A DNA stretch of 44,146 nt from a virus. Shown one piece after another: positions 8,042 through 41,314 of this stretch. Position numbers and translations under genes: made by a program. Each line of letters begins with the position of its first letter. The first letter of the stretch is position 1. The notes under the pieces are model-generated. The model saw only the letters and a program-made list of their open reading frames with translations. It ran no database searches and had not been told where the DNA came from. Location of the stretch: positions 1-44,146 of the IMG/VR virus record IMGVR_UViG_3300032297_000260; one strand, given 5' to 3'.

Positions 8042-8271
8042 TACTTACGGTCCTTGCCCCAATTTGGATCTATTTGCTGCATCCGTTTGTGTATCTGTTC
8101 TGCTACTATGGTGTGATCATCAGCGGCCATGGCCAGCCAACCCATTAAGTAACCCATTTTGTACAGTATAACTTGATCTTTTTCCGTGAGCTCACTGATT
8201 TTGACCCTGTGATTCAGGATCTGTTCTATTAGATCTCGATAGTATTCTATGCGCTCTTTACGGCTGGACAT
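8041..8271 (-). CDS. Small helical protein, unknown
   Basis: Encodes 76 residues, charged at both ends with a mildly hydrophobic middle (YKMGYLMGWLAMAADDH), probably a helical bundle. It begins inside the end of the ACP synthase gene and runs to the start of the DUF6492-like gene, so it is translationally linked to both. No family recognised. Confidence 0.65.
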   Translation of the reverse strand: MSSRKERIEYYRDLIEQILNHRVKISELTEKDQVILYKMGYLMGWLAMAADDHTIVAEQIHKRMQQIDPNWGKDRK

Positions 8272-8555
8272 AGTAGTGCTACGGCTGTGACTAGATCACC
8301 CTCGTGACTTAGGCTTAGATGAATGGATTCACAACCCTGATATTGTGGAGCGGCTCCATGTGGGAATAGTATCTGTGTCTGACTCCAGTCTGGGCTACTG
8401 CCGCGGCATTTGATCACAGCTTCGTGGCAAGCCCACCATTTGGCCAGTTGCTTGGGCTCGGTGTATTCGTGATGGTATCGCTGGGCTATTCGAGCCCTAG
8501 TCTGAGCTCGCATGGCTGCAAATCGAGCAATATTGGTTAGATCTATGCCTATCAT
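8247..8555 (-). CDS. acpS: Holo-ACP synthase (4'-phosphopantetheinyl transferase, AcpS-like)
   Basis: A 102-residue protein. MIGIDLTNIARF at the start has the first Mg-binding Asp (Asp5) of AcpS, and KWWACHEAVIKC at 39-50 carries the second acidic ligand (Glu45). IHLSLSHEGDLVTAVA at 78-92 matches the conserved SxSH and AvA strand. AcpS transfers phosphopantetheine from CoA to the Ser of apo-ACP; an ACP gene lies at 41072-41314. The start at 8555 overlaps the TGA of the upstream gene (ATGA); a longer in-frame extension would lie inside that gene. It is slightly shorter than E. coli AcpS (126). It is in a late-type minus-strand unit. Confidence 0.85.
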   Translation of the reverse strand: MIGIDLTNIARFAAMRAQTRARIAQRYHHEYTEPKQLAKWWACHEAVIKCRGSSPDWSQTQILFPHGAAPQYQGCESIHLSLSHEGDLVTAVALLCPAVKSA

Positions 8556-9142
8556 TGATGCTCTGCGATTAATCTTGGGGTACTGCCCAGCTTTATTTCG
8601 ATAAATTGTGCAGTTTGATTGCCCTTGTTGGCCCATTGATGCCAAACTGTATCAGTGTTAAAGGTTATGGCTGTGGTAAAAGGCACAGTTTCCAGGACTG
8701 TGACTTGGCTCAGAGTAGTAGCGGGCATCAGCGGTATGTATTGCCCACGAGCCTTGAATCTATGCACTCCCGTGGCTCCATTGGGATTTAGTTCGTATGT
8801 GGTCCACTCTACTGAATCACAATTTCTCAAGGGTATCATGATACTGGGTCCTGCAATAGCTGGCCAACCTTGCTCATCTATAGGTAAGTTTTGCATTATA
8901 CCTTTGCGACTGCCCGCTATCATACTGTAAAAGACCACAACAGTGCCCTCGTTGGTATCGGGATCAAGGCCCGAAGATATACCCAATTCTGTGAATAAGT
9001 TAGGATTTGTCACAGGCCCCGAAACTGTGGTAACTGCATATTGCTCGTTATAATTGCTATGGAATCCCAAATAAGCACTGGCCAATTGGCAAACAATGGG
9101 ATGTGTTTCCGGAGTTACGGGGAAGTTTAATCTTGTAATCAT
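8552..9142 (-). CDS. Conserved phage protein, possibly degenerate 2OG-oxygenase fold
   Basis: A 196-residue protein with beta-rich C-terminal half: IPLRNCDSVEWTTYEL, later FNTDTVWHQWANKGNQTAQFIEIKL. That last part is laid out like the second His strand of 2OG oxygenases (N-T-x-x-x-H), but no H-x-D is present, so if related it has lost the metal site. No Shine-Dalgarno precedes the ATG; instead AATAAATA ends five bases before it, so its mRNA may be leaderless. It is the first gene of the unit that continues into AcpS. Confidence 0.55.
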   Translation of the reverse strand: MITRLNFPVTPETHPIVCQLASAYLGFHSNYNEQYAVTTVSGPVTNPNLFTELGISSGLDPDTNEGTVVVFYSMIAGSRKGIMQNLPIDEQGWPAIAGPSIMIPLRNCDSVEWTTYELNPNGATGVHRFKARGQYIPLMPATTLSQVTVLETVPFTTAITFNTDTVWHQWANKGNQTAQFIEIKLGSTPRLIAEHQ

Positions 9143-9147
9143 AGTGG

Positions 9148-9155
9148 TATTTATT
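9148..9155 (-). promoter_or_regulatory. T4-type late promoter (AATAAATA)
   Basis: Minus-strand AATAAATA ending five bases before the ATG at 9142. It is back to back with the plus-strand GTTAAATA at 9157-9164. Confidence 0.6.
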
Positions 9156-9156
9156 T

Positions 9157-9164
9157 GTTAAATA
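9157..9164 (+). promoter_or_regulatory. T4-type late promoter (GTTAAATA)
   Basis: Located 19 bases before the ATG at 9184, with AAGGAC in the leader as a possible ribosome site. Confidence 0.55.
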
Positions 9165-9183
9165 ACTGTCTAAGGACAAAACA

Positions 9184-9372
9184 ATGGCAGGTTATTTCCC
9201 CGCAACAGGATCAACAATTCAAATGGGTCGAGCCCGGGCAGCTCTATACAGTGGCAGCGCCAGTAATACAACCTACCTTCGTGCTGAATTGACTGCTTAT
9301 TATGGATTCAGTAGCGGACAGGTTGCTTTCAGTAGCACACTAGGTGGCCGCTACTATCCCTATACATATTAA
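9184..9372 (+). CDS. Small virion-type protein, Ser/Gly/Tyr-rich
   Basis: Encodes 62 residues: MAGYFPATGSTIQMGRARAAL, then AYYGFSSGQVAFSSTLGGRYYPYTY. The polar, Gly/Ser/Tyr-rich sequence and the SGQ-FSS-GG pattern resemble small tail or fibre-associated proteins of T4-like phages. It is expressed from a late-type promoter and sits at the head of the structural-type stretch. It has no enzyme motif. It could also be a substrate for the modifying enzymes downstream, but nothing in the sequence proves this. Confidence 0.6.
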   Translation: MAGYFPATGSTIQMGRARAALYSGSASNTTYLRAELTAYYGFSSGQVAFSSTLGGRYYPYTY

Positions 9373-9405
9373 TATCAGGAATCGTTTCTGGGGATTTTGT
9401 ACGCA

Positions 9406-9413
9406 GTTAAATA
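9406..9413 (+). promoter_or_regulatory. T4-type late promoter (GTTAAATA)
   Basis: Located 18 bases before the ATG at 9432; the short leader contains AGGAG. Confidence 0.6.
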
Positions 9414-9431
9414 CCCACAACAGGAGACGAT

Positions 9432-10738: not shown

Positions 10739-10744
10739 ACTTTG

Positions 10745-10752
10745 ACTAAATA
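10745..10752 (+). promoter_or_regulatory. T4-type late promoter (ACTAAATA)
   Basis: Located 25 bases before the ATG at 10778; AGGA is in the leader. It could feed the long run of coupled genes that follows. Confidence 0.5.
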
Positions 10753-10777: not shown

Positions 10778-11623
10778 ATGGCCGGAAGAGGCGTTTTCCC
10801 CAAAGTTACAGGTGATACAGTCTATATTGAAGATTATAATGATCTTCAATCTATTATTGCCGGCGTAAAGACTACTTATTACGGTGTGGCCTGTACCAGC
10901 AGTCAGCTCCCTGCTAATTCATTAATCAATGACCTAGAATGGAATAATTTACAGATAGATATTAACAGTTGTATTAAACATCAAACTGGTAGTAACACAG
11001 CTATCTCTACCAAGAATCAAGACGATATAGTCTATGCAATTGATACCAATGTATATAGCACTCAATCATCAATTGCTAACACTAATAAAGCATCTGTGTT
11101 CGCTGGTACACAATTAGCTTTGGTTAATCCAAGTGGTGGCTCTAGTACTAATAGCGGCGGATGGAATACTTCAGTTAATCATGTAGTTACAGTTACCTGG
11201 GCTAGTCTAGCCGATGCAACTTATTTCTTTAATTGCGGCGGATCTGTAACATGGCAGGCTAGTTATAGCGGAGGAAGTTCAGCTGCTAATACTAAAGATA
11301 AAGCATGGAAAGCCTTAATTGATTCAGTAGGTATGTTACAGTACACTAGAGCAGACTATCTTGCTGGCGGTACTAAAACATTTGGTCCTTTCTATGCAGG
11401 TGTATATGTATACACTGCAAACTATATCACAATTACAGCGGTAAAAAACAGTGATACACAATTAACTATTACCGTATTGTTAAACGATGCTAGTGGTCCC
11501 AATCTTTGGGGTACTGATGAAACAGTAGGAACTAGCATTACCAGCGCAGTTGGATATTACAAAAGTGTTGATGCTATTGTTAGTCCTTTTCCAAACGCAA
11601 TTACAACTACTAACAGCCTATAA
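10778..11623 (+). CDS. Virion structural-type protein
   Basis: A 281-residue protein. Its start, MAGRGVFPKVTGDTVYIEDYNDLQSI, resembles a class of small structural proteins in T4-like marine phages. The rest is rich in Ser, Thr, Asn, Gly and Tyr with short beta-repeat stretches, as in tail-fibre or baseplate-attached proteins. There is no signal peptide, membrane segment or catalytic motif. Base composition shifts within the gene from the more balanced left part of the window to the AT-rich right part. It may be an adhesin or decoration protein. Confidence 0.65.
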   Translation: MAGRGVFPKVTGDTVYIEDYNDLQSIIAGVKTTYYGVACTSSQLPANSLINDLEWNNLQIDINSCIKHQTGSNTAISTKNQDDIVYAIDTNVYSTQSSIANTNKASVFAGTQLALVNPSGGSSTNSGGWNTSVNHVVTVTWASLADATYFFNCGGSVTWQASYSGGSSAANTKDKAWKALIDSVGMLQYTRADYLAGGTKTFGPFYAGVYVYTANYITITAVKNSDTQLTITVLLNDASGPNLWGTDETVGTSITSAVGYYKSVDAIVSPFPNAITTTNSL

Positions 11624-11671
11624 TTAGATTCCGTACCCCTTACTTTAGATAATTAAAGGTAAAGGTGTACT

Positions 11672-12007
11672 ATGGAAACTCTAAATCTCGAGCAAGCACT
11701 TAGCTTTGCCAATTATCAAACTGTACTTAATCAACAAAGACAACAGCTTAAACAAAAGTTCTTAACTGATTGTATTATAGCATATAACGGTGGATTGTTT
11801 AAAATCAGTCCAGAATTTATTCTAGCTGTGCAAAATTTAGGTTCAAACTGGGTATTAGATCTTAACAACAATCCTGTGTTAATTGAGGATTTATCCAATT
11901 TTGTTACCGTAGCAAAAGATTCCTATCAATCAGCAATTGAGACATACGGTCAATCTTATCAAAAACTTAAAACAAAACGAAATGTCAAGGCGTTAGTTGA
12001 CCTATGA
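11672..12007 (+). CDS. Conserved phage protein, unknown
   Basis: A 111-residue protein. It begins with a helical, Gln-rich stretch (NYQTVLNQQRQQLKQKF), then AYNGGLFKISPEFILAVQNL. It resembles small proteins coded beside fibre genes in T4-like marine phages. AAAGG precedes the ATG by about nine bases. It begins the chain of coupled genes extending to 26090, overlapping the next start by four bases. It could be an assembly chaperone, but that is a guess from position. Confidence 0.6.
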   Translation: METLNLEQALSFANYQTVLNQQRQQLKQKFLTDCIIAYNGGLFKISPEFILAVQNLGSNWVLDLNNNPVLIEDLSNFVTVAKDSYQSAIETYGQSYQKLKTKRNVKALVDL

Positions 12008-12837
12008 GTCAAGGTATTTTACTTTTTGCTCATAATAATGAGCAACTTAATTATGGTTACCTAGCAGTTTGGCAGGCAAGATTGATTAAAAAATATTTGA
12101 ATAAACCTGTCACTTTGGTTACTGACAAGGCAACAATTTACGACCTTCATAATAAGAAACTATTCAGTAAAGAGTTGTTTGATAGTATAGTAATTAGTGA
12201 TGCTGAAACTGACCAAAAAAGGTTAGTTGGAACAGAATGGGTTCTATTTAAAAATGTAGATAGATGCAATGCATATGACCTTAGTCCTTACGATGAAACT
12301 ATTGTAATGGATACTGATATCTTGTTACAATCAGACAAGTTAAATTTGTTATGGAACAGCAATGCTGACCTGTTAGTATCTAAAGATGCATATGATGTGT
12401 TTGATCGAACATACCCTGAGTTTGACTACTTAAAAGAACACGGCATAGAATTTTATTGGGCAACTGAATTTTATTTTAAGAAATGTGAATCTTCTAAGTT
12501 GTTCTTTGATACTTGTAAAAGAGTCAAAGATAATTATGAATGGTATGCGATTCTATATGGTATGAACAATTCACCTATTCGTAACGATCATGTTTGGAGT
12601 ATTGCTCTACATGAATTAGGTGGAGCGCAACACGGTTCTTGGGCAGAAACAATTCCTCGAATACTAAGATTTTCAATTGATAGAGATACAATATTAAAAA
12701 TTAACGATGGTGTTACAATTGGAACATCATATAATGGAAAATCCTATGTTACCCAATTAACAGGACAGGATGTGCATCTCATGAACAAAATTCAACTAAT
12801 TGAAATCATTAAAAAAGAATTAGGAGTAGAAGAATGA
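12004..12837 (+). CDS. GT8-like glycosyltransferase
   Basis: A 277-residue protein with a GT-A layout. An opening strand (GILLFAHNN) is followed by NKPVTLVTDK and SPYDETIVMDTDILLQ, where Asp103-Thr-Asp105 is the DxD metal site. A His residue (HLMNK) lies near the C-terminus. The layout is like nucleotide-diphospho-sugar transferases of family 8. It is paralogous to the next gene, sharing the LSPYDET-DxD stretch. Coupled at both ends by four-base overlaps, it probably adds sugars to the same target as its neighbour. Confidence 0.7.
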   Translation: MSQGILLFAHNNEQLNYGYLAVWQARLIKKYLNKPVTLVTDKATIYDLHNKKLFSKELFDSIVISDAETDQKRLVGTEWVLFKNVDRCNAYDLSPYDETIVMDTDILLQSDKLNLLWNSNADLLVSKDAYDVFDRTYPEFDYLKEHGIEFYWATEFYFKKCESSKLFFDTCKRVKDNYEWYAILYGMNNSPIRNDHVWSIALHELGGAQHGSWAETIPRILRFSIDRDTILKINDGVTIGTSYNGKSYVTQLTGQDVHLMNKIQLIEIIKKELGVEE

Positions 12838-13622
12838 GTCGAGGGTATTTGATAATGGCACAAGGTAACTATCTTAATATGGCTATTGCCCTTGCTGAAA
12901 GTATTAAAAATACACAATCAACTGTTAATAATGTGAGTATCATTGTTGATTGTGTAACAACAGATCATCCAGCGGTTGACCAATTTATTATATTACAAAA
13001 AGATATTTCAGGAAGTGCCGAATGGAAAATTCATAATAGAGCATTCTTTTATGAACTTAGTCCATATGATGAAACTGTCATATTAGATGCTGATATGTTA
13101 TTCTTAGAAGATGTAAGTCATTGGTGGGATTATATGTCTAAGCATGAAATGTTATGTACTAATAAAGTAAGAACATATCGTAATCAATTAGTTACCGATA
13201 ATCCATACCGTAAAGCATTTGTCGGTAATGATCTTCCTAATGTTTACAGCGCATTTACATATTTTAAAAAAACAGAGCTAGCTAAATCAGTATTTGATTT
13301 AGTTGTTAGTATTATCACATACTGGGATGAGTGGACATTTAGATATACCCCTGAAGATAGACAACTACAACCTAGCTTAGATGTAGCATTGGCAATCGCT
13401 ATTAAAATTTTAGATATAGAAGATCAAGTAACAAGCGTACTTGAATTTCCTACATTTACACACATGAAGAGTGGATGCCAAGGTTGGAAAAATTATTCAG
13501 AAGATTGGAAAGTACACTTAGGATTATACAAGACTAACAGCGGCATTAGACTAGGTAATCATTTGCAATCAGGTATATTACATTATGTAGATAAGAATTT
13601 CTTGAAAGAGATCAATAAATGA
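12834..13622 (+). CDS. GT8-like glycosyltransferase, paralogue of previous
   Basis: A 262-residue protein with the same plan as its upstream neighbour: start GYLIMAQGNYLNMA, then ELSPYDETVILDADMLFL with Asp85-Ala-Asp87. Overall similarity is confined mainly to the sugar-nucleotide half; the acceptor half differs. It overlaps the next gene by four bases. The pair probably arose by duplication and may act in sequence on one glycan. Confidence 0.7.
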   Translation: MSRGYLIMAQGNYLNMAIALAESIKNTQSTVNNVSIIVDCVTTDHPAVDQFIILQKDISGSAEWKIHNRAFFYELSPYDETVILDADMLFLEDVSHWWDYMSKHEMLCTNKVRTYRNQLVTDNPYRKAFVGNDLPNVYSAFTYFKKTELAKSVFDLVVSIITYWDEWTFRYTPEDRQLQPSLDVALAIAIKILDIEDQVTSVLEFPTFTHMKSGCQGWKNYSEDWKVHLGLYKTNSGIRLGNHLQSGILHYVDKNFLKEINK

Positions 13623-14164
13623 AATATGTATATTACGAACTAGGGACTGGATCAATTAAGATGATCAGTCCCGTTAAAGAAGAATCTTCAGAATACCCTT
13701 ATATAGAAGTAGAAGAAGATGCCATTGAAGATATATTTTCAGGAAAGAAAAAAGCAATTGACCATTTTGTTAAACCTAGTTCTAAGACATCGAATACAGG
13801 ATTAATTATTGCCAAAAAGAAAGATATTGTAACTTGGAAAAGTATTAATGATTGGCTCTACATGATACCTAACGAGAACGAATTTTATGAAATGCATGTA
13901 TTACAAGACATTGCCAACAAGCAAATTACAATTAATCTAACAGATAATGCAAAGATTTGGTGGAAAGGAAATAATTTTTTTCAGAAGAAGTACTTCTTGT
14001 TCTCTGCATGTATAGAAGGTGATCCTCACTTCATGACTTGGTACAAAATGATTCCTAGTGAAGAACTGTTAAACACTGTTTCATTTGAATATAGTGGCAA
14101 CGACAATATTAGATTTTATACACATAGATATTTTGAAAGTTATATACATGAGCAACATACTTAA
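13619..14164 (+). CDS. Unknown protein in glycosyltransferase run
   Basis: A 181-residue protein, mixed alpha/beta, with an acidic stretch (YIEVEEDAIEDIF) and a C-terminal half rich in aromatic residues (WWKGNNFFQKKYFLF). No motif is recognised. It overlaps its upstream neighbour by four bases and the following gene by 17. Position suggests a partner of the glycosyltransferases. Confidence 0.6.
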   Translation: MKYVYYELGTGSIKMISPVKEESSEYPYIEVEEDAIEDIFSGKKKAIDHFVKPSSKTSNTGLIIAKKKDIVTWKSINDWLYMIPNENEFYEMHVLQDIANKQITINLTDNAKIWWKGNNFFQKKYFLFSACIEGDPHFMTWYKMIPSEELLNTVSFEYSGNDNIRFYTHRYFESYIHEQHT

Positions 14165-15086
14165 TCTTGCAGAAGTTGACTGCATATATTTGAGCTACGA
14201 CGAACCAAACGCAGAAAAGAACTATGCCGATCTATTAAACAAGGCCCCGTGGGCTAAAAGAGTACACGGTGTTAAAGGCAGTGACGAAGCACATAAAGCG
14301 TGTGCTCGTTTAAGCGAAACAGATCGTTTTATTACTGTAGATGGCGACAATATTGTTGACCCTAAGTTCTTTGATGTAAGTATAGACTTAGACAAGATTG
14401 CTAATGGTGTAGACAAACAGTTTAGTTGGTGCGGCAAGAATAACATCAACGGATTAGTATATGGTAATGGTGGTTTGAAATGTTGGACTAAAGACTTTGT
14501 ACTCAACATGAAAACACACGAAGCGGCTGAAAGTGAACAAGGGCAGGTTGACTTCTGTTGGGAAAACAACTATACTCAAATGGTAGGCCTTTACTCTATG
14601 GTACACAATAATGCAAGCCCATTACAGGCATGGAGAGCTGGATTCCGTGAAGGAGTAAAGCTGACTCTTGATAATGGATTGAAACAGAAACTAATCAATC
14701 CTAAGAAACAAATTGTACGCCGTAACTATCAACGACTATTAATTTGGCAGTCAGTTGGTGCAGATGTAGAAAACGGACTTTGGGCAATATATGGTGCAAG
14801 GTTAGGTGTGTACCTAACAAACTGTACTGATTGGAATCATGTAGATGTACGAGACTTTGAATATCTTAATGAAATGTTTGCACTTGAACAACAATCTATT
14901 AACGAGTCAAACATACGAGAACATATTGCACTACTAGGTGAAAAGATTAGATTGCATTTGAATATGCCTGTAGCCGACTTAGATGAAACACAAAGCCGCT
15001 TCTTTAAAGATGTTTGGGTCAATCCTCCTAGACTAGAGTCTACCGTACGAGAGCAAGATACAGATTGGGATATATTAGAACTATGA
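14148..15086 (+). CDS. Phage GT-A-like glycosyltransferase
   Basis: A 312-residue protein; the start is set at ATG 14148, inside the end of the preceding gene. It has VDCIYLSYDEPNAEKNY, then APWAKRVHGVKG and RFITVDGDN with a DxD-like Asp-Gly-Asp at 65-67. A C-terminal domain contains WRAGFREGVKL. The same SYDEPNA...RVxGVKG...VDGD arrangement forms the C-terminal domain of the next gene, and it resembles a glycosyltransferase-like family in T4-like cyanophages. Catalysis is inferred from this layout only. Confidence 0.65.
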   Translation: MSNILNLAEVDCIYLSYDEPNAEKNYADLLNKAPWAKRVHGVKGSDEAHKACARLSETDRFITVDGDNIVDPKFFDVSIDLDKIANGVDKQFSWCGKNNINGLVYGNGGLKCWTKDFVLNMKTHEAAESEQGQVDFCWENNYTQMVGLYSMVHNNASPLQAWRAGFREGVKLTLDNGLKQKLINPKKQIVRRNYQRLLIWQSVGADVENGLWAIYGARLGVYLTNCTDWNHVDVRDFEYLNEMFALEQQSINESNIREHIALLGEKIRLHLNMPVADLDETQSRFFKDVWVNPPRLESTVREQDTDWDILEL

Positions 15087-17092
15087 ATATTATACCTAAA
15101 GAGTTAGTAGAAACAGTCAAGTGGGAAGAGCGCAAAGAAGACTATGATCAAGCAATGTTTGAGCTTGGTAAAGGTCTTGATCTCTTTTATGTAGTTAATC
15201 CCGAACTTCCTGAGTTTTATATTAACGCAATAGACAAAGAATATAGATCATCTAGGTGTGTATTATGGAAACATAATGATATCTGGGTTGTTAAACAGTT
15301 TCACAAAGATTGGACTCCGGCGCACGGCTGGACAATTAAAGAGTTACCTAATCTGCCTAAACAACATTGGAAAGTTAATCCAGATATAGATCCAACTGTC
15401 CTATTTGAAAATGATCCATTTAATAATTACAAGATAGGCCTTTGGGACTTAACATATAAACACACATGGTATCTTGATCCCAAGTATGATCCGGAAGGAA
15501 ATAAGATTTGGGTATATGAGTGTGTAACTGATTGGCTAGATACAGGTAACAAAGACCTTGAGATTATTCCAAAGTTAACTATCACTCACAATAAAGAGTA
15601 CAATCATATTAGATTTGATTACGGTGAGTTTGTCCCCGCTTATTATGACTTAAAGTACGAACATGTTTGGTATATAGATCCCAAATATACACAAGGACAG
15701 AAAGTATGGGCAAAGAGTGTATCGGCGTCTGTGATTAGTGATGGTACAAAAGATATGGGAATTGTTACTCCTGATCTTCCTAAACAAATATGGCATGTGA
15801 ATCCGGATGTTGATGCAGATGTTGTATTCGCCAATGATCCTAAAGATAAGTTTGTTATACCTATTTGGGATATTAACTTTAGTCATGTATGGTATCTAGA
15901 TCCTAAGTATTCTATTGCAGATGAAAAGGTATGGCTGTACAAATGTGAAACTGATTTTACATTTGAAGGCACAAAAGATATGGGATACCTTACGCCTGAT
16001 CTAATTATAGAACAGAATCCGTTGTTAGATGGAGTGACATTTGAATTAGATCCTATAAGTTTATTAGATTTAAAATATGAAAACATTTGGAATCTAGATG
16101 AAGTATACGGTGCGTGGAAAGACATGTGGGCTATTAATATTAAGCCGGCATGGAAGAACACAGAAGGAATTAAGTACAGAGGTTCTATTAGTCCTAACTT
16201 TAAATTATCTTTCAATACTGAGATCCCAGATTTACGATTTAATGTAGACTATAAGATTCCATACCCTGACTTCAAATACGAACATATATGGTATCTAGAT
16301 CCTAAGTATTCTATCGGTAAAAAAGTATGGCTAGCAAGTTTGTCAGCAGTAGAGCATACAGCAGGTGTTAAGGACATGGGCTATGCTATACCAGACATTG
16401 CCGAACAATTAGATGTAATCTTTATCAGCTACAACGAGCCAAATGCAGATGCTAACTGGCAACGAGTATTAGAGAAAGCTCCTAATGCTAAACGAGTAGA
16501 TGGTGTTAAAGGTATCTTTGAAGCACACAAAGCAGCCGCAATGGTTGCAAAGAGTGATATGTTCTATGTTGTTGACGGTGATGCTTACTTGACTGATGAA
16601 TGGCAGTTTGATTTTAGTCCTAATATCTTTGATAGAGATTGTGTGCATGTCTATAGAGCAATGAATCCTATTAACGATTTAACATACGGGTATGGTGGCG
16701 TAAAACTATTTCCTCGCAAGTTACTTTTAGAGGCAACTAACTGGAAAGTAGATATGACTACTAGTATTGCCAGAAAGTTAAAAGTGCTTAGAACAGTTAG
16801 TAATGTTTCCGCATTTAATACAGATGAAATTAGTACCTGGCGTAGTGCGTTCCGTGAATGTGCTAAGTTGGCAGCAGGCACAATTGACAACCAAGTTAGT
16901 GCAGAAACAGAACGCAGATTAAAACTATGGACAAGCAAAGGTACCGATAGGAAGTTTGGTAAGTATGCTATCGCAGGAGCGAAAGCTGGCATGGCATTTG
17001 GCCTTAAGAACAAATTAGACGATAAGTTAATGCAACAAATAAACGACAGACAATGGTTAGAGACACAATTTAAAAATGCAAAATTACATTAA
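15083..17092 (+). CDS. Multi-repeat protein fused to GT-A-like domain
   Basis: A 669-residue protein; the start is at the ATGA overlap with the upstream gene. Residues up to about 440 carry five copies of a 65-80 residue module centred on D-(L/I/F)-x-Y-x-H-x-W-Y-(L/I)-D-P-K-Y, followed by KVW and often GTKDMG. The fourth copy has diverged (WNLDEVY). Residues about 442-669 are the SYNEPNA...RVDGVKG...VVDGD domain, paralogous to the preceding gene, with FRECAKL near the end. Two modules share a 28-base identical DNA run, pointing to recent duplication. The repeats may bind a glycan or a repetitive fibre while the last domain acts on it. Confidence 0.7.
   Translation: MNIIPKELVETVKWEERKEDYDQAMFELGKGLDLFYVVNPELPEFYINAIDKEYRSSRCVLWKHNDIWVVKQFHKDWTPAHGWTIKELPNLPKQHWKVNPDIDPTVLFENDPFNNYKIGLWDLTYKHTWYLDPKYDPEGNKIWVYECVTDWLDTGNKDLEIIPKLTITHNKEYNHIRFDYGEFVPAYYDLKYEHVWYIDPKYTQGQKVWAKSVSASVISDGTKDMGIVTPDLPKQIWHVNPDVDADVVFANDPKDKFVIPIWDINFSHVWYLDPKYSIADEKVWLYKCETDFTFEGTKDMGYLTPDLIIEQNPLLDGVTFELDPISLLDLKYENIWNLDEVYGAWKDMWAINIKPAWKNTEGIKYRGSISPNFKLSFNTEIPDLRFNVDYKIPYPDFKYEHIWYLDPKYSIGKKVWLASLSAVEHTAGVKDMGYAIPDIAEQLDVIFISYNEPNADANWQRVLEKAPNAKRVDGVKGIFEAHKAAAMVAKSDMFYVVDGDAYLTDEWQFDFSPNIFDRDCVHVYRAMNPINDLTYGYGGVKLFPRKLLLEATNWKVDMTTSIARKLKVLRTVSNVSAFNTDEISTWRSAFRECAKLAAGTIDNQVSAETERRLKLWTSKGTDRKFGKYAIAGAKAGMAFGLKNKLDDKLMQQINDRQWLETQFKNAKLH
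15888..16314 (+). repeat. 28-base identical run in two protein modules
   Basis: Bases 15888-15915 and 16287-16314 are identical over 28 positions and encode the same part (WYLDPKYSI) of modules three and five in the repeat protein. Neighbouring modules use different codons for the same residues. Confidence 0.85.
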
Positions 17093-33700: not shown

Positions 33701-33702
33701 AT

Positions 33703-33730: not shown

Positions 33731-34319
33731 GAAACATCCAGACCGCATATTTTTTACAGGAGTGCCCGGCAGTAGATGGAGTGGTATTGCACAGAAGATC
33801 GAAGAGATCAAATGGATGAATACCAGCGACAGAACGCCCGACAGAGAATATACACACGGGCAATTTACCGGACACAAAGGAGCCTACTTTGGAAAAAGTA
33901 TGGAACTACATCCAATTCTTGATACTAGCTACATTGATCAAGCATGGTTAACACTAGGAGGTTGTAAACTAGTTAAGAGCCACAACTGGGCATACAACTT
34001 AGATGATGTGTACGATTTTTGTAAAAAGAATAACAGTTGGTTAATGTTAGTCTATCGTCCTGATCAGGCTAGCTTCCATTGGTGGAAGGAAGCAGGCGGC
34101 TTTGATATTAAGTATCCATGTTACGATGAATACACTGACGATAACACTATGCAAGAGCAAATTTCTATCCAAAATTCAAATATCCTAAAGTTTTCTTTTA
34201 AATATGATCTTACATGGAATCATTTTAATCCGTGGTGGGTGAGAGAAAATCTAGGTGCAAAGATTGAATTTGAAAAAAAATCAAATTGGGAAGATATTTT
34301 AGTGAGTATTATTAAATGA
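33729..34319 (+). CDS. Sulfotransferase-like protein
   Basis: A 196-residue protein. FFTGVPGSRWSGIAQ near the start is a P-loop-like phosphosulfate-binding loop. LVKSHNWAYNL and NNSWLMLVYRPDQASFHWW are laid out like the K-x-H and 3'-phosphate (R...S) motifs of PAPS-dependent sulfotransferases. A role in sulfating a glycan or lipid is inferred from these patterns only. It heads a six-gene unit, with overlaps of four bases up to the fifth gene. Confidence 0.6.
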   Translation: MKHPDRIFFTGVPGSRWSGIAQKIEEIKWMNTSDRTPDREYTHGQFTGHKGAYFGKSMELHPILDTSYIDQAWLTLGGCKLVKSHNWAYNLDDVYDFCKKNNSWLMLVYRPDQASFHWWKEAGGFDIKYPCYDEYTDDNTMQEQISIQNSNILKFSFKYDLTWNHFNPWWVRENLGAKIEFEKKSNWEDILVSIIK

Positions 34320-35077
34320 CGCAACAAGTCTATGTGGTCGCATTTACAAACGGAAGCTGCGGGTCCTTTATACTTGCACTTATCGAGCGATTAACAAACC
34401 TTAAGAGTAAAATACCCTTCTTGATTGGTCAGTGGGCAAATGCTCACAAACTAGTATCTAATCGAGGTATCGACGACAATTTGAGTAATAGAATAGCCAA
34501 CTATCCAGGAGATTCAGGATTATGGTGGGACCTTTTAAAAATTACAGCATCTCCTAATCAAAACATTTACATTACTTCTCATTTTTATGATCCAGTATCC
34601 ATACTTAGAAACTTTCCATCGTCTAAAGTGTTTGTAATAACACATACAGCTGAAGATGCTAAGGAAATTGCAATAAACAATTTTTTTAAATCTATTGTTG
34701 CAGAATGGAATTCATCTCGAGCTAGAGCTGTACAAGAAAATTATAAATGGGTGAGAGATATTGCACCACATCTGTTTACTTCTAAATATGGAACTCCTCC
34801 TAACCAGTTAAATAAGAAGGAGATGAATGCTGTTGTAGAAATACTTAGAGGTGAAACAATTAGACACGGAATGCATATGGTTACTATTCCGGAGCAGTAT
34901 CGAGACAGCATTGTAGAAATAAAATACAGAGATATATTTGACAAGCCTGAAAAAGTACTAGAAATTATATCTCAACATATTGGATATAATATCACTGATT
35001 TTGTTCGCGAACAATATACAACTTACCTTAACAAACAAGCAGAATTTAAACGGAAAACACAAGAGATATTAACATGA
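34316..35077 (+). CDS. Sulfotransferase-like / P-loop family protein (tandem 1 of 4)
   Basis: A 253-residue protein. VVAFTNGSCGSFILALIERL is a P-loop-like opening; YITSHFYDP and KVFVITHTAEDAKEIAINNFFK follow. The C-terminal IVEIKYRDIFDKPEKVLEIIS has the Y-x-D-I...P-x-x-V-L pattern of sulfotransferase C-termini. It is the first of four tandem paralogues with ATGA junctions. The family assignment rests on overall layout; catalytic residues are not certain. Confidence 0.55.
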   Translation: MTQQVYVVAFTNGSCGSFILALIERLTNLKSKIPFLIGQWANAHKLVSNRGIDDNLSNRIANYPGDSGLWWDLLKITASPNQNIYITSHFYDPVSILRNFPSSKVFVITHTAEDAKEIAINNFFKSIVAEWNSSRARAVQENYKWVRDIAPHLFTSKYGTPPNQLNKKEMNAVVEILRGETIRHGMHMVTIPEQYRDSIVEIKYRDIFDKPEKVLEIISQHIGYNITDFVREQYTTYLNKQAEFKRKTQEILT

Positions 35078-35844
35078 CGAACCATCATCGAACTTATGTA
35101 GTTGCATTTTCAAATGGTAGTAGCGGATCTATGCTTCTTGCACTTATCGAACGATTAACAAACCCAGAAATTACTAGACCTTTTTGGTTTACGAAATGGG
35201 GTAATGCTCATTTATGCACGGTGCGTCCGGGAATTGTGTTTGATTTTGATAAAGTAAAGTTTAACGGACACGCAGACGAATCAAACGATTGGTGGGGCGG
35301 AGTAGTTCCTATTGTCGATGTTAGTCAACCTCTTTACATACAGAGTCATTTTTATGATCCGCCGACTATACTTAATCGTTTCCCGAATGCAAAAATATTT
35401 GTAATAACTCATACTGACAGCGATAGTAGAGAAATTGCAATTAATAGTGTTTTTAAGTTCATGATCGGAGAGTGGAATGGGCGGTCTAGCGAATTAGCAA
35501 GACGAGTATACGATTGGATAAGAGGAAACTGTCCTCATTTGTTTACCTCATCTAAGGACATACCGCCTGAAAAATTAACCAAAACAGAACTAAATGGACT
35601 AGTAGAAATATACAGAGGGGACTTATTCCGTAGAGCAATGCATATGGTTACTATTCCGGAAGAATATAAAGATATCGTTGTAGAAATAAAATACAGAGAT
35701 ATAATAGACAACCCTGAAAAAGTTTTAGATACACTTTCTCAGGCAACAGGGTACGAAGTTACCGACTTTGTAAGGGCGCAATACACAGCGTACCTTGACA
35801 AGCATAGAGAATTCAAGCAAACAACACAGGAGCTTTTAACATGA
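35074..35844 (+). CDS. Sulfotransferase-like / P-loop family protein (tandem 2 of 4)
   Basis: A 256-residue paralogue very close to the previous gene: VVAFSNGSSGSMLLALIERLTNP, SHFYDPPTIL, FVITHTDSDSREIAIN, RAMHMVTIPEEY and VEIKYRDIIDNPEKVL all recur. The closeness of the pair points to a recent duplication. ATGA overlaps join both ends. Confidence 0.55.
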   Translation: MTNHHRTYVVAFSNGSSGSMLLALIERLTNPEITRPFWFTKWGNAHLCTVRPGIVFDFDKVKFNGHADESNDWWGGVVPIVDVSQPLYIQSHFYDPPTILNRFPNAKIFVITHTDSDSREIAINSVFKFMIGEWNGRSSELARRVYDWIRGNCPHLFTSSKDIPPEKLTKTELNGLVEIYRGDLFRRAMHMVTIPEEYKDIVVEIKYRDIIDNPEKVLDTLSQATGYEVTDFVRAQYTAYLDKHREFKQTTQELLT

Positions 35845-36572
35845 CACAACCGATATACATAGTAATACACCCAATGGGTGCAGGCGGATACTTTCTTAGA
35901 GCAATGCTAGAAAGGATGCTGAGACCCGATGACGAGATCCCAATTTGGCATAGTGCTCATAATAATGCATTAAGTGCAATAAACAAATCTGGATTTGATT
36001 ATAACTGGACACGAGCATCTGGGATAGGTCAAACGGTTGATTTTTTTGAAAATGTGATTATATCGTTTCCTGACCCTGAACCAGTTGTAATGGGCTGGCG
36101 CAGTCTAAATTGGGATGCAATGCTTTCAAGATTCCCTGACGCTAAAGTAATAATATTGGGATTTGACGAGGATGATGTTCCCCAACTAGCAATAAATCAC
36201 TTTTGGAAATTCTTTGTAGATGAATATAACGGTGGTGCCCGTGATCCATTTATTGATGTAAGAAATTCTATTCCAGCTATTTTTACTTCTGCAGAAAGTG
36301 TTAGACCAGAAAACTTAACTGACGAAGAAAAGGCAAAATTAACAAAGTGGCTACAGAGTATAGTAATAAGCCAAGGTGGAATGGTATACACAGTACCTGA
36401 ACAGTATCAATCACAAGCTATTATTATCAAGTACAAGGATATTCTAGGAAACAAGGATAAAGTAATCTCTCAGCTAGAAGCAATTACTGGTACAACAGCT
36501 TCTGACTTTATTAAAGGTCAGTACGATCAATATTTGATTAGAGAGGCGGCATATTTGGAGAGCATTCAGTGA
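35841..36572 (+). CDS. Sulfotransferase-like / P-loop family protein (tandem 3 of 4)
   Basis: A 243-residue, more diverged paralogue: IVIHPMGAGGYFLRAMLERML replaces the opening loop, and IIIKYKDILGNKDKVISQLEAITG keeps the C-terminal pattern. The SHFYDP segment has become MGWRSLNWDAM. It may have a different acceptor. It overlaps both neighbours by four bases. Confidence 0.5.
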   Translation: MTQPIYIVIHPMGAGGYFLRAMLERMLRPDDEIPIWHSAHNNALSAINKSGFDYNWTRASGIGQTVDFFENVIISFPDPEPVVMGWRSLNWDAMLSRFPDAKVIILGFDEDDVPQLAINHFWKFFVDEYNGGARDPFIDVRNSIPAIFTSAESVRPENLTDEEKAKLTKWLQSIVISQGGMVYTVPEQYQSQAIIIKYKDILGNKDKVISQLEAITGTTASDFIKGQYDQYLIREAAYLESIQ

Positions 36573-37318
36573 TCCAGCAAGGGTATTTTATTTGTTATGC
36601 TCCGGGAACTTCCGGAGCTTTCATTTCATCACTAGTTGGACAAATAGTTAATTCTACAACTAAAAAGTTTGTATACTCAGACCACGGCAATTCACATACT
36701 AACTTGTCTGATTCAAATGGCGGATTAGATTGGGCGTTGGCACCTACACCTACTACAAGTGAGTACTTTTATAAGAATTTATTCACTTATAACAGTGGTA
36801 GGCCTATTGTGATATCAAATCATCTTCACCCAGCCTGGGAAACTATTGCTAAACGATGGCCTACTTTTAAGATGATATTAATCACACATTCAATAGACGA
36901 TCTTGATGAAATTGCTGCAAGTTTGTTTTACAAATATTATGTAGATGATTTTGATTCGGTTTCTAATAAGGCGTTCAAAGATGTAATACAGACGCATAGT
37001 CGAGTATTTGGCCGAGAAGTTGCCCACCCTAATGAATTAACCGAAAGTGAAAAACGGTTGTTTATGAAAATCATTGTGTTCCATAAAATTACAGATGGTT
37101 ACATTCATCCAACAGTTCCCCCAGAGTATACAGCAAATACTCTTCTACTGCCTTATAGAGAAATTATATCTAACAAAGATCTAGTATTAGACAAATTATC
37201 TACTTTTCTAGAAAAGCCAATACCAGAAGCAACAAAAGATAATTACGATGCGTACATGATGTACCAACGAAAACTAGAAAGAGAGAAAATGACATGGTTA
37301 AAACCATTCGACTTATAA
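36569..37318 (+). CDS. Sulfotransferase-like / P-loop family protein (tandem 4 of 4)
   Basis: A 249-residue paralogue beginning at a GTG that overlaps the previous TGA (GTGA). YFICYAPGTSGAFISSLVGQIV is the opening loop; VISNHLHPAWETI, MILITHSIDDLDEIA and LLLPYREIISNKDLVLDKLS follow. It is the most diverged of the four. Its end overlaps the binding-protein gene by 25 bases. Confidence 0.5.
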   Translation: MIQQGYFICYAPGTSGAFISSLVGQIVNSTTKKFVYSDHGNSHTNLSDSNGGLDWALAPTPTTSEYFYKNLFTYNSGRPIVISNHLHPAWETIAKRWPTFKMILITHSIDDLDEIAASLFYKYYVDDFDSVSNKAFKDVIQTHSRVFGREVAHPNELTESEKRLFMKIIVFHKITDGYIHPTVPPEYTANTLLLPYREIISNKDLVLDKLSTFLEKPIPEATKDNYDAYMMYQRKLEREKMTWLKPFDL

Positions 37319-38262
37319 TTTTATCATTATTATTGACCGCAGTTAACGCATTTGCCTGGCAACCAACAAAACCAATTAGAGTTATCTTAGGATTTACACC
37401 TGGATCAGGTAACGAAGTAAGTTTCAGAGGTGTTGAAGCTGTTCTACAAAAGCAGTACCCTAATTTAAATTTTATTATAGAGCATAGACCAGGCGTAGAT
37501 TCCATTCTTGCTACAAACTACTTTGCAAAATTACCTGCTGACGGCTATGCAATTAGTATTCCTAGCGAACAGGGTACTTTTGTTACAGCAGAGGTATGGA
37601 ATAAAAAGGCAATGGAGTTTGATCCATTTGAATTTGAATTTGTAACTTCTATTGCACAGAGCCCATTAGCCCTAGTTGCCAGTGTAAACAGTCCTGTTAA
37701 TACAGTTAATGAACTGATTGAAACACTTAAGAAGCCAAATAGAGATATTAATTTCGCTGTTGGGGGAGGTGCTCATAAAGTAGCATATGAATTCTTAACA
37801 GAAACAATTAAAGCAAACGACACTAAAATACAAGCTGTACAATACAAAGGCCCTAATCCTGCTGTACTAGCTGTTGCTTCTAATCAAACAGAGTTTGGAA
37901 TCATGCCCGTTGCAATTGCTCAACCATTAATTACAGGTGGCAGGGTAAAGTTAATTGCACTTGCTGGTGATAAGAAGCTTTCAGCTTATCCAAATACTCC
38001 GTTACTAAAAGATTTTGTTCCTGGTCTAGTAGTTAACGCCGGTTGGGTAATTGTATTGCCCAAGGGAACTCCTAAAGAAATCGTTAATTGGTATGTAAAT
38101 GCATTTGTACCTGCTATCAGGAGTGCTGAAGCTAAAGTGTATTTTGATAACAATTTAATGATTGTTAATGAAAATCAACTCGGACCTGAAAAAGCAAAGA
38201 ACGCAATGATTAATTTACGAGACAAATGGCAACCAATTGTCCGTAAAATGAAAGTGGATTAA
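37294..38262 (+). CDS. TctC/Bug-family periplasmic solute-binding protein
   Basis: A 322-residue protein with a Sec signal peptide (MVKTIRLIILSLLLTAVNAFA, cleavage likely after residue 21). The mature part opens WQPTKPIRVILGFTPGSGNEVSFRG and has EHRPGVDSILATNYFAKLPADGYAI, INFAVGGGAHKVAYEFL and ITGGRVKLIALAGDKKLSAYPNTPLL, all typical of tripartite tricarboxylate transporter binding proteins. These bind carboxylated small molecules in the periplasm and deliver them to TctAB. No transporter membrane subunits are present, so the host must supply them, or the protein acts alone. Full length, not truncated. Confidence 0.9.
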   Translation: MVKTIRLIILSLLLTAVNAFAWQPTKPIRVILGFTPGSGNEVSFRGVEAVLQKQYPNLNFIIEHRPGVDSILATNYFAKLPADGYAISIPSEQGTFVTAEVWNKKAMEFDPFEFEFVTSIAQSPLALVASVNSPVNTVNELIETLKKPNRDINFAVGGGAHKVAYEFLTETIKANDTKIQAVQYKGPNPAVLAVASNQTEFGIMPVAIAQPLITGGRVKLIALAGDKKLSAYPNTPLLKDFVPGLVVNAGWVIVLPKGTPKEIVNWYVNAFVPAIRSAEAKVYFDNNLMIVNENQLGPEKAKNAMINLRDKWQPIVRKMKVD

Positions 38263-39176
38263 ATGTCGGTACGCTGTTCTATATAGAACTTACCGCTGTC
38301 TATAAATTCTTTAGGAGTGATGTAGGACCAATCGAAAGTTTTGTGTCCTCTCATTCCTAATTCTTTCTTAAACGAATCTGTAAACTTACCTTCTATACGA
38401 AGTGTAATCCTGCTCTCAGTTTCCGCATCTACACCGTGCAAATCTGTTTCATTAAACCAATAAGCATATGAATTTTCTTTTAGATAGTACTTTTCTTTTG
38501 TATTAGGATCGTACAAGAAGAATGGTCTCGGCTGCATGTCTAGTTGTATGTTGATAAAGTTTACATCGTGATTACAAGGATAAAAGTCTCTATGTATGAA
38601 CACATCTGTATTGGGCTGGCTCTTAAATGCAATTACATATCCTATATGTTCAAAAGGCAATGATTCTGCAAGACGAATCAAAGTAGGACATTCCTTTTCA
38701 ACCCATGGAAACCAACTACTAGGTTTAGACTTATCAAAGTAATCAGCAGTGTAGTTTCTAAACATTGCAATACCTTCCCACCTCTTTGTTATGCCAAAGT
38801 GTTCTTGTATGTGCATCTTAATATCTCGTTTCTTATCAAACTGATCGAGGTCATAGTCTGGCCAGTACTTGTCTAAGTTAGCAAGATAACTGTCAGCACA
38901 TCGTTGTCCGTTGATCTCTTCAGGAAAGATGCCATTCTGAATTAGATAATTGTATTGTATACTAGAAGACTGTTCTATTTCTTCTTTGACTATAGGAACA
39001 ATGTTTTGATCTACATACCTGTTAAGACTAGCAATCTTAACTCCGTTTGGACCGACTCCCATAATAGGTAAGTTACAGTGTTTAAAGGACCACAATGCAG
39101 GAAATTGTTTGTGCCTTAAAGGATACTCAAATGAAAAGTCCTTCTCACCAAACTGTCCTTCGTTTACATAGTACAT
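38259..39176 (-). CDS. 2OG-Fe(II) / aspartyl-asparaginyl hydroxylase-like oxygenase
   Basis: A 305-residue protein. HIGYVIAFKSQPNTDVFIHRDFYP carries His195-x-Asp197; DLHGVDAETESRITLRIEG carries His247 and Arg256, completing the iron and 2-oxoglutarate site. The ATG at 39176 is preferred to a TTG at 39191; both lie inside the end of the upstream gene. The long N-terminal part (about 170 residues) is unique among the window's oxygenases. It overlaps the binding-protein gene tail to tail by four bases. Confidence 0.72.
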   Translation of the reverse strand: MYYVNEGQFGEKDFSFEYPLRHKQFPALWSFKHCNLPIMGVGPNGVKIASLNRYVDQNIVPIVKEEIEQSSSIQYNYLIQNGIFPEEINGQRCADSYLANLDKYWPDYDLDQFDKKRDIKMHIQEHFGITKRWEGIAMFRNYTADYFDKSKPSSWFPWVEKECPTLIRLAESLPFEHIGYVIAFKSQPNTDVFIHRDFYPCNHDVNFINIQLDMQPRPFFLYDPNTKEKYYLKENSYAYWFNETDLHGVDAETESRITLRIEGKFTDSFKKELGMRGHKTFDWSYITPKEFIDSGKFYIEQRTDI

Positions 39177-39775
39177 TCTAAACTGTTCCAATCAAATGTA
39201 TAGTCCGGATCAAGGTATTGATAGATAACATTTTGTAGTGTGTTGTTAATAATAATAGGGTATTCTAACATCTTTAAATTAGTATATGCTGTTTCTTTAA
39301 AAAAGTCTAGTTTATTCTGTAACAGTACATTTAACTTTCCTTTCTTAACTATTTTAAAGATGGTCTTAGTGTTATGAGCATCAAACAGCCACAACACACA
39401 TTTTCCATTTCGTTTTAGTATAGCTTTAATCTGGTACGGAACGATATAACTACTAATAAGAACATTATTTCGATGTTCTTTGTGTATTAGAGTTCTAGCT
39501 CCAGATATCCAGATATCTGAATTAAACTCCGTTTGATTATATCCGCTGATACCTACAAGATCATCGTTGAAGTATAGTAAACAAAGTCCACCTTGGGCTT
39601 TTGAAAACCTTTTTTCTTTAAACATCACATCATACCAATTATTTTTAGGTTGGTCCAAATTGTGGTGTTGGTAAAGATAATTGGAACTATCTCCGTTTTC
39701 GTCACAGAATTGCACGATTTGGAATATATCCAACTCAGAAATGCTGTCCGAAAAAACTTCTTTGATTGTGTACAT
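39164..39775 (-). CDS. GNAT-like acetyltransferase candidate
   Basis: A 203-residue protein. GGLCLLYFNDDLVGISGYNQTEFNSDIWISGARTLIHKEHRNNVLISSYIVPYQIKAIL matches the strand 4 - helix 3 part of a GNAT fold: an exposed strand ending in a turn, then a basic loop before a helix. It ends with neighbours typical of such folds (CVLWLFDAHN). TATAAATA ends seven bases before the ATG, with no Shine-Dalgarno. It is coupled to the oxygenase gene by a 13-base overlap. Confidence 0.6.
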   Translation of the reverse strand: MYTIKEVFSDSISELDIFQIVQFCDENGDSSNYLYQHHNLDQPKNNWYDVMFKEKRFSKAQGGLCLLYFNDDLVGISGYNQTEFNSDIWISGARTLIHKEHRNNVLISSYIVPYQIKAILKRNGKCVLWLFDAHNTKTIFKIVKKGKLNVLLQNKLDFFKETAYTNLKMLEYPIIINNTLQNVIYQYLDPDYTFDWNSLECTM

Positions 39776-39782
39776 TGGTAGA

Positions 39783-39790
39783 TATTTATA
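39783..39790 (-). promoter_or_regulatory. T4-type late promoter (TATAAATA) close to start
   Basis: An exact T4 late consensus, ending seven bases before the ATG at 39775. Confidence 0.65.
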
Positions 39791-39806
39791 TGCGTACTTT
39801 ATAAGG

Positions 39807-39835
39807 TTGACAAAACCAAAGTACTGTGCTATAAT
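39807..39835 (+). promoter_or_regulatory. Sigma70-type promoter upstream of lysis gene
   Basis: TTGACA, 17-base spacer, TATAAT. It is followed by a leader of about 95 bases before the ATG at 39936. The spacer lacks TGGTAAAACC, though the mirrored TTTTACCA is found in the leader at 39906-39913. Confidence 0.75.
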
Positions 39836-39935
39836 AAACGCTGTTGTGTAGAATTGACTATTTTAAGCCACATACTGCTTATCTAAAGTTAATTAGACAT
39901 AACTATTTTACCACTAACGAAAGAGGAGGTCTTAA

Positions 39936-40511
39936 ATGACTGAATATACGCTAGAAAGGGAACAAGCGCAAGTAGATATGACTGCCATAGTGCAGGCAAC
40001 CAAAGTTCTACTAATGGCGCTAGCACTGATGTTTTCAGTGCTCATGCTCAAATGGGTAGTTGTTGACAAGCTCGACAAATATGAACCTGTTGAGAGTTCT
40101 CAAATTACAACAGCAATGCGAGAAAGGCAATTAGCCTGTCTTGCCACAAACATTTATTACGAGGCAGGTAATCAGCCTTTTGAAGGCAAAGTAGCCGTAG
40201 CACAGGTAACAATAAACAGAACCGAAAGCGGACAATACCCGGCCGATATTTGCAAAACTATCTACCAAAAGAACATTGTCTATGAAAAAGTTCTTTGCCA
40301 ATTTAGTTGGGTATGCGACAGGACTGTTACAGCTAGAGCCATCAATAACGCCACCTTTAAAGAAAGTGAAGAAGTTGCCAAAAAAGTTCTACTAGAAGGA
40401 TTCCGTTTACCTAGTTTAAAGGATGCAATGTATTTCCATGGGGATTACATTAATCCAGGATGGAAACGAGAAAAGATTACAAAAATTGGAAACCACATTT
40501 TTTACAAATAA
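39936..40511 (+). CDS. SleB-like cell-wall hydrolase, candidate endolysin
   Basis: A 191-residue protein with an N-terminal membrane anchor (about 23-44) and a Hydrolase_2/SleB domain: ACLATNIYYEAGNQPFEGKVAVAQVTINR, with the catalytic Glu at 76, and CQFSWVCD further on. It cleaves peptidoglycan glycan strands. The uncleaved anchor and periplasmic catalytic domain fit a signal-anchor-type phage endolysin. AGGAGG is eight bases before the ATG. The next gene is a small membrane protein, as in a lysis cassette. Confidence 0.85.
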   Translation: MTEYTLEREQAQVDMTAIVQATKVLLMALALMFSVLMLKWVVVDKLDKYEPVESSQITTAMRERQLACLATNIYYEAGNQPFEGKVAVAQVTINRTESGQYPADICKTIYQKNIVYEKVLCQFSWVCDRTVTARAINNATFKESEEVAKKVLLEGFRLPSLKDAMYFHGDYINPGWKREKITKIGNHIFYK

Positions 40512-40520
40512 GGACTTGAC

Positions 40521-40841
40521 ATGAAATTTATTGGAATTATCTCTAATCTAGTTAACTTTGTTTTTACATTCTTCAAAGAGCATCTTGGTCATATCAGTGC
40601 CCATACTCTAGGTTGGATTACCATTGTGCTACTACACTTTTCAGCTGTTCCTACTTTGCTTGCTATTATTCTAGCACAAAGTGACAAGCTGCCTCCTTAT
40701 GATCTCATGCTATTTGTATGGGCCGCTTTAACTACATTGTTCTTCAAAAGCCTAATTGAGAAGAACTTCTTGTATGTTTCTACAATTTGTTTGGGATTTA
40801 TTGCCCAAGTTGTAATGTTGGGAATGATCATATTCAAATAA
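40521..40841 (+). CDS. Small membrane protein, candidate holin
   Basis: A 106-residue protein with about three hydrophobic segments (30-52, 64-80 and 84-105) and a FKEHLGHISAHTLGW stretch. Close relatives appear to be common in T4-like marine phages as membrane proteins of unknown role. It lies nine bases after the SleB-type gene, which makes a holin or lysis regulator plausible. No functional assay is implied by sequence. Confidence 0.6.
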   Translation: MKFIGIISNLVNFVFTFFKEHLGHISAHTLGWITIVLLHFSAVPTLLAIILAQSDKLPPYDLMLFVWAALTTLFFKSLIEKNFLYVSTICLGFIAQVVMLGMIIFK

Positions 40842-40844
40842 ATA
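40837..40844 (+). promoter_or_regulatory. T4-type late promoter (AATAAATA) close to start
   Basis: Overlaps the TAA stop of the membrane protein and ends five bases before the ATG at 40850, which has no Shine-Dalgarno. Confidence 0.5.
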
Positions 40845-40849
40845 AATGC

Positions 40850-41071
40850 ATGAGAGCATTTGAATTTATATCTGAAAAAACTGACCCTTCAGTTTGTCGT
40901 AGCCCTAAACGCTTAGGCAGGAGTGATCATAGCTCTTGTGTAAGCCAAGGGCTACGCCCACATAATTCCAAGGGAAAAGGCCATACAGATGGCCATGGTA
41001 ATTACTTAAAAGGTAAAAAAGCTAAATCAGTCCACTACGGCGGCTCGGTAAAGGACTACGACGGCAAGTAA
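40850..41071 (+). CDS. Small basic Gly/Ser/His-rich phage protein
   Basis: A 73-residue protein, low-complexity and basic: CRSPKRLGRSD, SQGLRPHNSKGKGHTDGHGNYLKGKKAKSVHYGG. The layout resembles small basic proteins of T4-like cyanophages, with SQGLR and GKKAKS motifs. It is probably nucleic-acid-binding or disordered. The start at 40850 is chosen because the longer frame extends into the upstream gene. Its stop is part of a 16-base palindrome shared with the convergent ACP gene. Confidence 0.65.
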   Translation: MRAFEFISEKTDPSVCRSPKRLGRSDHSSCVSQGLRPHNSKGKGHTDGHGNYLKGKKAKSVHYGGSVKDYDGK

Positions 41072-41082
41072 TTACTTGCTTT
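41064..41082. repeat. Palindrome GCAAGTAATTACTTGC at convergent stops
   Basis: A perfect 16-base palindrome contains the TAA stop codons of both convergent genes back to back. It lacks a loop and T-tract, so it is a weak candidate for a terminator. Confidence 0.6.
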
Positions 41083-41314
41083 CGATCATTAGTTTAATTT
41101 TAGCAATTGCATCCTTAACGATAAGAAATTCTTCAGTGCTTTTATCGTTAATTTCAATACCAAACTCGTCTTCTAACTCTACAATCATTTCTACTACAGA
41201 AATGCTATCAACATCAAGATCTTTTACTAAATGTGCATTGTCAGTTAACTGATCCATTTCTAAATCAAAACATTCGCACATAATTTCTTTGATTCGTTTT
41301 TCTAAGTTATCCAT
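41072..41314 (-). CDS. acpP: Acyl carrier protein
   Basis: An 80-residue acidic, helical protein: KDLDVDSISVVEMIVELEDEFGIEI matches the helix 2 region of ACP, with Ser37 in the DS motif as phosphopantetheine site (DSI instead of the usual DSL). The total length and EEFLIVKDAIAKI C-terminal helix fit. It carries acyl groups as thioesters; a phage-encoded synthase (8247-8555) could activate it. The start at 41314 is one base after the IscA gene's stop; AGGG precedes it. No ketosynthase or thioesterase was found in this window. Confidence 0.9.
   Translation of the reverse strand: MDNLEKRIKEIMCECFDLEMDQLTDNAHLVKDLDVDSISVVEMIVELEDEFGIEINDKSTEEFLIVKDAIAKIKLMIESK

Follow-up and report, generated by a model that had tools for sequence, protein, structure and literature searches.

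A carrier protein, an AcpS-like transferase and desaturases in an uncultured phage, and a related gene cluster in large phages

The auxiliary genes of phages mostly encode single enzymes that boost a pathway of the host. Related to this, Roseobacter prophages carry acpP, fabF and fabG, and lipid desaturases have been described in cyanophages (Roitman 2018, as cited in PMC8224337). An acyl carrier protein (ACP) is also encoded by Prochlorococcus phage P-HM2 and by Eneladusvirus (PMC7760394), with no AcpS, the enzyme that activates such carriers, annotated or found nearby. This report deals with a stretch of DNA from an uncultured phage (IMG/VR virus record IMGVR_UViG_3300032297_000260; 44,146 bp, analysed as a whole and called the window below) which encodes, like those phages, an ACP, and besides it an AcpS-type transferase and two membrane fatty-acid desaturases. 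It is probable that such phages make or modify acyl chains on a carrier of their own during infection, because relatives pack the same kinds of genes into a conserved cluster together with ketosynthase, dehydratase and acyltransferase genes.

The Roseobacter prophages resemble this cluster in having phage-borne ACP and ketosynthase genes, but their order fabG-acpP-fabF is that of E. coli, and neither AcpS nor a desaturase, Rieske, PP-loop or GNAT gene is mentioned for them in the passages concerned (PMC8224337). The desaturases of cyanophages and pelagiphages (Mosig EXVC030M) belong to the same Pfam family as those of the window, whereas in Mosig no link with an ACP or AcpS is found in the region examined. 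Outside phages, a membrane desaturase acts on the chain of a dedicated ACP in the jamaicamide pathway (JamB/JamC) and in bacterial polyyne clusters; these systems have an adenosine monophosphate (AMP) ligase for loading, and none was found in the phage contigs studied here. The N-acyl synthases LuxI and FeeM have a GNAT-related fold and use an acyl-ACP donor to form an amide, FeeM together with a partner ACP. Their likeness to the phage GNAT proteins is one of fold type, with no sequence similarity shown.

Carrier, transferase and desaturases of the window

The ACP gene (41072-41314, minus strand) encodes a protein of 80 amino acids which matches PF00550 with 40.5 bits (cut-off 20.8; expect value (E) 3e-10) and the NCBIfam ACP model with E 4e-17. 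The serine for phosphopantetheine attachment lies within the motif DVDSIS, and the ratio of nonsynonymous to synonymous substitution rates (dN/dS) is 0.15 against contig G002 (29,786 bp), which spans positions 11659-42188 of the window at 91-96% identity. The two desaturase genes (31686-32435 and 32422-33180, plus strand) overlap by 14 bp, and their products match PF00487 (cut-off 29.7 bits) with 68 bits (E 1e-18) and 56 bits (E 5e-15), respectively. Both have three histidine boxes in the translation (HRLLSH, HREHH and HNGHH/HNNHH) and both are strongly constrained (dN/dS 0.016 each against G002).

The third component, an AcpS-type 4'-phosphopantetheinyl transferase of a short, divergent subtype (8247-8555, minus strand; 102 amino acids), was examined by Pfam, NCBIfam, alignment and fold. 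Its score against PF01648 (23.5 bits) is slightly below the cut-off of 25, and that against the NCBIfam holo-ACP synthase model NF000832 (E 7e-10) is below the cut-off of the model; a two-sequence profile matches the AcpS of M. tuberculosis with E 1e-6. For its AlphaFold2 model (predicted local distance difference test (pLDDT) 90.5), the top 50 PDB matches are all AcpS or phosphopantetheinyl transferases, with probability 1.00 and template modelling (TM) scores up to 0.77. The lengths of the open reading frames, the family scores, the fold and the conservation exclude chance for the ACP, the AcpS and both desaturases, which the first-pass annotation had already recognised.

The short AcpS subtype is common to the window and to contig G001, a relative of 102,544 bp in which an AcpS, an ACP and two desaturases are also present; the two AcpS proteins are 53% identical and keep D5, R11, E45, K49, S83 and H84. 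D5, E45, K49 and H84, which we take to be the catalytic Asp, Glu, Lys and His of AcpS, are invariant in the 15 phage sequences aligned. The GTG motif after the catalytic Lys is GSS or GSP in the window and G001, and GTG or GKG in the other 13; one loop is also gone from the short subtype. It is improbable that the window gene is a decaying or repurposed remnant, the ACP being activated by the host AcpS. The short length, the lost motif and the lone-ACP phages that manage without AcpS would fit this explanation, but the same short form is kept in G001 with its catalytic residues intact, the fold is confidently that of AcpS, and the reading frame in the window is intact and overlaps the upstream gene (8552-9142, minus strand; a protein without family assignment), whose stop is joined to the AcpS start as ATGA.

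The earlier proposal that this phage encodes both the carrier and the activating enzyme has held up, and the combination is unusual: AcpS was found in none of 40 other phage ACP loci, which were collected by ACP similarity alone, covered up to 8 kb on each side and exclude the cluster loci L042 and L043. Among 22 contigs tested whole, 11 have an AcpS, all of which also have an ACP, and five have an ACP without AcpS; most of the 22 had been picked by searches with AcpS, ketosynthase or the acyltransferase family U180 (described below), and the proportion is not an unbiased rate. A putative independence from the specificity of the host AcpS, suggested at the same time, is plausible.

The ATG of the ACP gene lies one base past the stop of a gene for an IscA/HesB-like iron-sulphur (Fe-S) protein (41316-41642, minus strand). 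Together with the several Fe-S enzymes close by, and with contig L095, where an IscA-like gene is one gene away from an ACP, this spacing might suggest that the ACP serves Fe-S assembly with the IscA-like protein, for the four radical S-adenosylmethionine (SAM) enzymes and the Rieske protein of the window. Such a role is improbable, as the adjacency is not conserved: the corresponding locus of G001 has Fe-S genes but no ACP gene, the latter being found 34 kb away with GNAT genes, and among the cluster contigs checked an IscA-like gene is close to the ACP only in L095. The G001 locus (35118-36131) consists of an IscU-like and two IscA-like genes. On the other side of the ACP, an endolysin gene (39936-40511) is about 0.6 kb distant. 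In Eneladusvirus the ACP has been detected in particles by liquid chromatography-tandem mass spectrometry, and its gene is near a spanin-like gene (PMC7760394). A virion or lysis-associated function would agree with both observations, but it leaves the AcpS and the biosynthetic cluster of the relatives unexplained, and in G001 the ACP is far from the endolysin; it is regarded as very improbable.

The guanine plus cytosine content of the window drops at about 10-12 kb, from 0.41-0.48 to 0.31-0.38, which raised the question of a chimera. This was rejected, as genes to either side of the step have matches in G001: 5397-6122 to its left (45%), 10778-17092 across it and 39936-44146 at the far right (mostly 50-75%), with the same gene order throughout. 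The window has therefore been taken as one genome. Its DNA ligase shares 75% identity with the G001 enzyme and 54-59% with the ligases of the cluster contigs G016, L119 and L092. The clamp loader of G016 is T4-type and shows 57% identity to its counterpart in PA5oct-type jumbo phages; the largest cluster contig has 364,554 bp, and one contig with U180 has 399,796 bp. As part of the overall explanation given in the last section, the window may well be part of the genome of a large phage that is related to T4 and carries its own acyl-carrier module.

The gene cluster of related phages

Relatives were found by IMG/VR searches with AcpS, ketosynthase and U180, followed by a profile survey of the fetched loci. 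Nine distinct contigs carry AcpS, U180, FabZ, an ACP (ACP2) and a FabF-like ketosynthase together (G016, G017, L088/L090, L091, L092/L093, L094, L095, L116 and L119), usually with a desaturase, another ACP (ACP1) and a PP-loop enzyme. The composition varies: L094 and L119 are without ACP1 and without a desaturase beside U180, each having its desaturase some 4 kb away from the other genes of the set; in L095 the PP-loop A gene is missing; the halves of the cluster are 11 kb apart in G017; and a Rieske gene occurs in G016, L088, L092 and L116 only. The tandem desaturase pair is also found in G016, G017, L092 and L095. Four further contigs (L085, L086, L109 and L112, with near-copies L113 and L114) have U180, desaturase, ACP1 and AcpS, with no ketosynthase in the stretch examined. 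Pairwise identities among cluster members are 54-94% for the ketosynthase and 38-85% for AcpS, so that most are diverged lineages rather than copies of one contig.

In G016, Pfam recognises the ketosynthase (PF00109/PF02801), FabZ (PF07977), AcpS (PF01648) and both ACPs (PF00550). All of the nine ketosynthase sequences compared have C148, H285 and H320, and the cluster FabZ reaches 151 bits against a FabZ model with a cut-off of 113. The FabZ-like, ketosynthase-like and ACP components of the cispentacin pathway (AmcE, AmcF and AmcB; NCBIfam) also match, below their cut-offs, and are outscored on the cluster proteins by the FabF and FabZ models. U180 is a GNAT-fold acyltransferase: the best PDB matches of a model built from 24 sequences (pLDDT 92.6) are all GNAT N-acetyl- or acyltransferases, with probability 1.00 and modest TM scores of about 0.4-0.6. 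No meaningful Pfam match was obtained for U180, and a profile search of PDB sequences gave nothing useful. The family is nearly absent from cellular genomes, as judged by a single genome-wide scan (profile A4) with one match, on a 3.5-kb contig in a metagenome-assembled genome labelled Actinomycetota. In L118 and L120-L123, U180 is fused to a second domain in proteins of about 390 amino acids, and these genes adjoin a desaturase gene.

The arrangement of these genes bears on whether the desaturases act on the carrier. In 11 contigs ACP1 convergently overlaps the neighbouring desaturase gene by 14-33 bp, whereas a desaturase is nearby in only two of the 40 other phage ACP loci. This argues against the explanation that the desaturases only adjust the host membrane, as has been proposed for those of cyanophages, with ACP and AcpS as separate cargo. 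Desaturases do occur in phages without a nearby ACP, such as Pelagibacter phage Mosig; in most of the contigs L097-L111 U180 is accompanied by a desaturase or PP-loop gene, with no ACP or AcpS (L109 excepted), and in the window the desaturases are 8 kb from the ACP and 23 kb from AcpS. A membrane role alone is considered rather unlikely.

An association with GNAT genes also exists in G001. There, 4 bp are shared by the ACP gene and a GNAT gene (PF00583, E 6e-11); another GNAT-like gene comes next, and a desaturase gene lies 1.6 kb ahead of the ACP. The window itself has a candidate GNAT acyltransferase (39164-39775, minus strand), related with E 8e-15 to L120:18771-19394, which is narrowly above the GNAT cut-off. 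Relatives of the candidate in L118 and L120 directly adjoin a desaturase gene, and therefore the link between ACP, GNAT and desaturase recurs in different gene orders. Two other counterparts of cluster genes are encoded by the window. The Rieske oxygenase (28981-29787, plus strand) shares 43-45% identity with its counterparts in the cluster and is nearest by sequence to SxtDIOX/SxtT (E 6e-9); since G002 lacks 28975-29734, almost exactly this gene, it is optional cargo, gained or lost between close relatives. The PP-loop ATPase-like protein (28115-28984, plus strand) is a distant relative of the cluster protein, with weak matches only, to NAD-synthetase/TtuA.

In a limited literature search neither a phage AcpS nor such a cluster was found described, which is weak evidence; no credible match for the cluster was obtained in sequenced phage isolates, and the window AcpS had no match among sequenced phages. 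Matches of a relative's AcpS in Listeria, Staphylococcus and Enterococcus 'phage' records and in Microcystis phage MaAM05, of which only the last was inspected, were not counted, and neither were ketosynthase matches in similarly labelled records. The MaAM05 stretch (MW495066.1, L125) carries glyS, smc, scpA/B and secDF and looks like mislabelled bacterial sequence. Phage ACPs, desaturases and the prophage acpP-fabF-fabG genes are already published, and the finding is filed here as a variant of auxiliary metabolic cargo.

Other genes and elements of the window

At the left end (462-5413) an intergenic element is repeated, with copies at about 462, 983, 2346, 3239, 3622, 4070, 4470 and 5352. 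On the minus strand it has TTGACA-like and TATAAT-like hexamers about 17 nucleotides apart, ahead of small minus-strand genes, and it looks like a putative family of early promoters. Four tandem radical SAM-type genes are located at 17076-22070 (two recognised by Pfam, the others by BLAST homology), with several relatives in G001. The four consecutive genes at 34316-37318 encode similar proteins of about 250 amino acids that resemble sulfotransferases by eye; the first, the only one tested, had no Pfam match. They are followed by a gene for a TctC-type receptor protein of tripartite tricarboxylate transporters (37294-38262; dN/dS 0.012 against G002), an unusual phage cargo with relatives in several U180 contigs.

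A possible acyl-tailoring route and its significance

The genes, their families, their conservation and their clustering in relatives are observed; from them we infer the chemical steps, the kind of product and the action of AcpS on the ACP of the window. AcpS would move phosphopantetheine from coenzyme A (CoA) to the phage ACP, giving a carrier dedicated to the phage, on which host fatty-acid synthesis, aided in the relatives by the phage ketosynthase and FabZ, would supply an acyl chain. The membrane desaturases, and in some members the Rieske oxygenase, would modify the chain held by the ACP, and the GNAT-fold acyltransferase would transfer it to an amine; the N-acylated product would be a small molecule, a lipid or a protein. 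The loading of acyl groups onto another molecule, considered in the first-pass annotation, fits the GNAT link. This explanation as a whole is held with about as much confidence as doubt. A more specific reading is only tentative: large lytic phages would carry a phage-specific cluster, with its own carriers and activator, that makes an N-acylated product in infection, and the window phage would have a scattered version of it.

Several points weigh against this route. Since AcpS and ACP lie 32 kb apart in the window, their pairing is one that we infer, and the activity of the window AcpS is not assured because the GTG motif and the loop are missing. Lipids or acyl-CoA are the usual substrates of membrane desaturases, and most GNAT proteins use acetyl-CoA, the fold being no proof of an acyl-ACP donor; the GNAT candidate of the window has been assigned through its relatives only. 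No AMP ligase was found in 15 contigs (malonyl/acyl transferases were not searched for) and a short-chain reductase occurs in only two; therefore the sequences examined fall short of encoding a complete synthase, and loading and reduction would need the host. Finally, the 44-kb window contains no U180, ketosynthase or FabZ, and no PF02801 ketosynthase is found in G001 either; in the window phage these genes may lie beyond the fragment or be absent. The earlier statement that a fatty-acid synthase is not present, as no ketosynthase, acyltransferase or thioesterase was seen, thus stands for the fragment, apart from the GNAT relative mentioned above, and fails for the relatives with ketosynthase, FabZ and GNAT genes.

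If the proposed route is true, the set of carrier, activator, chain-building and chain-modifying enzymes and acyltransferase that is conserved in diverged phages would amount to a viral acyl-tailoring pathway. Its product could be a signal or a toxin, or the pathway could serve to change host envelopes or to decorate virions. A further question that can be tested is why an AcpS is brought along by these phages and not by those that have only an ACP.

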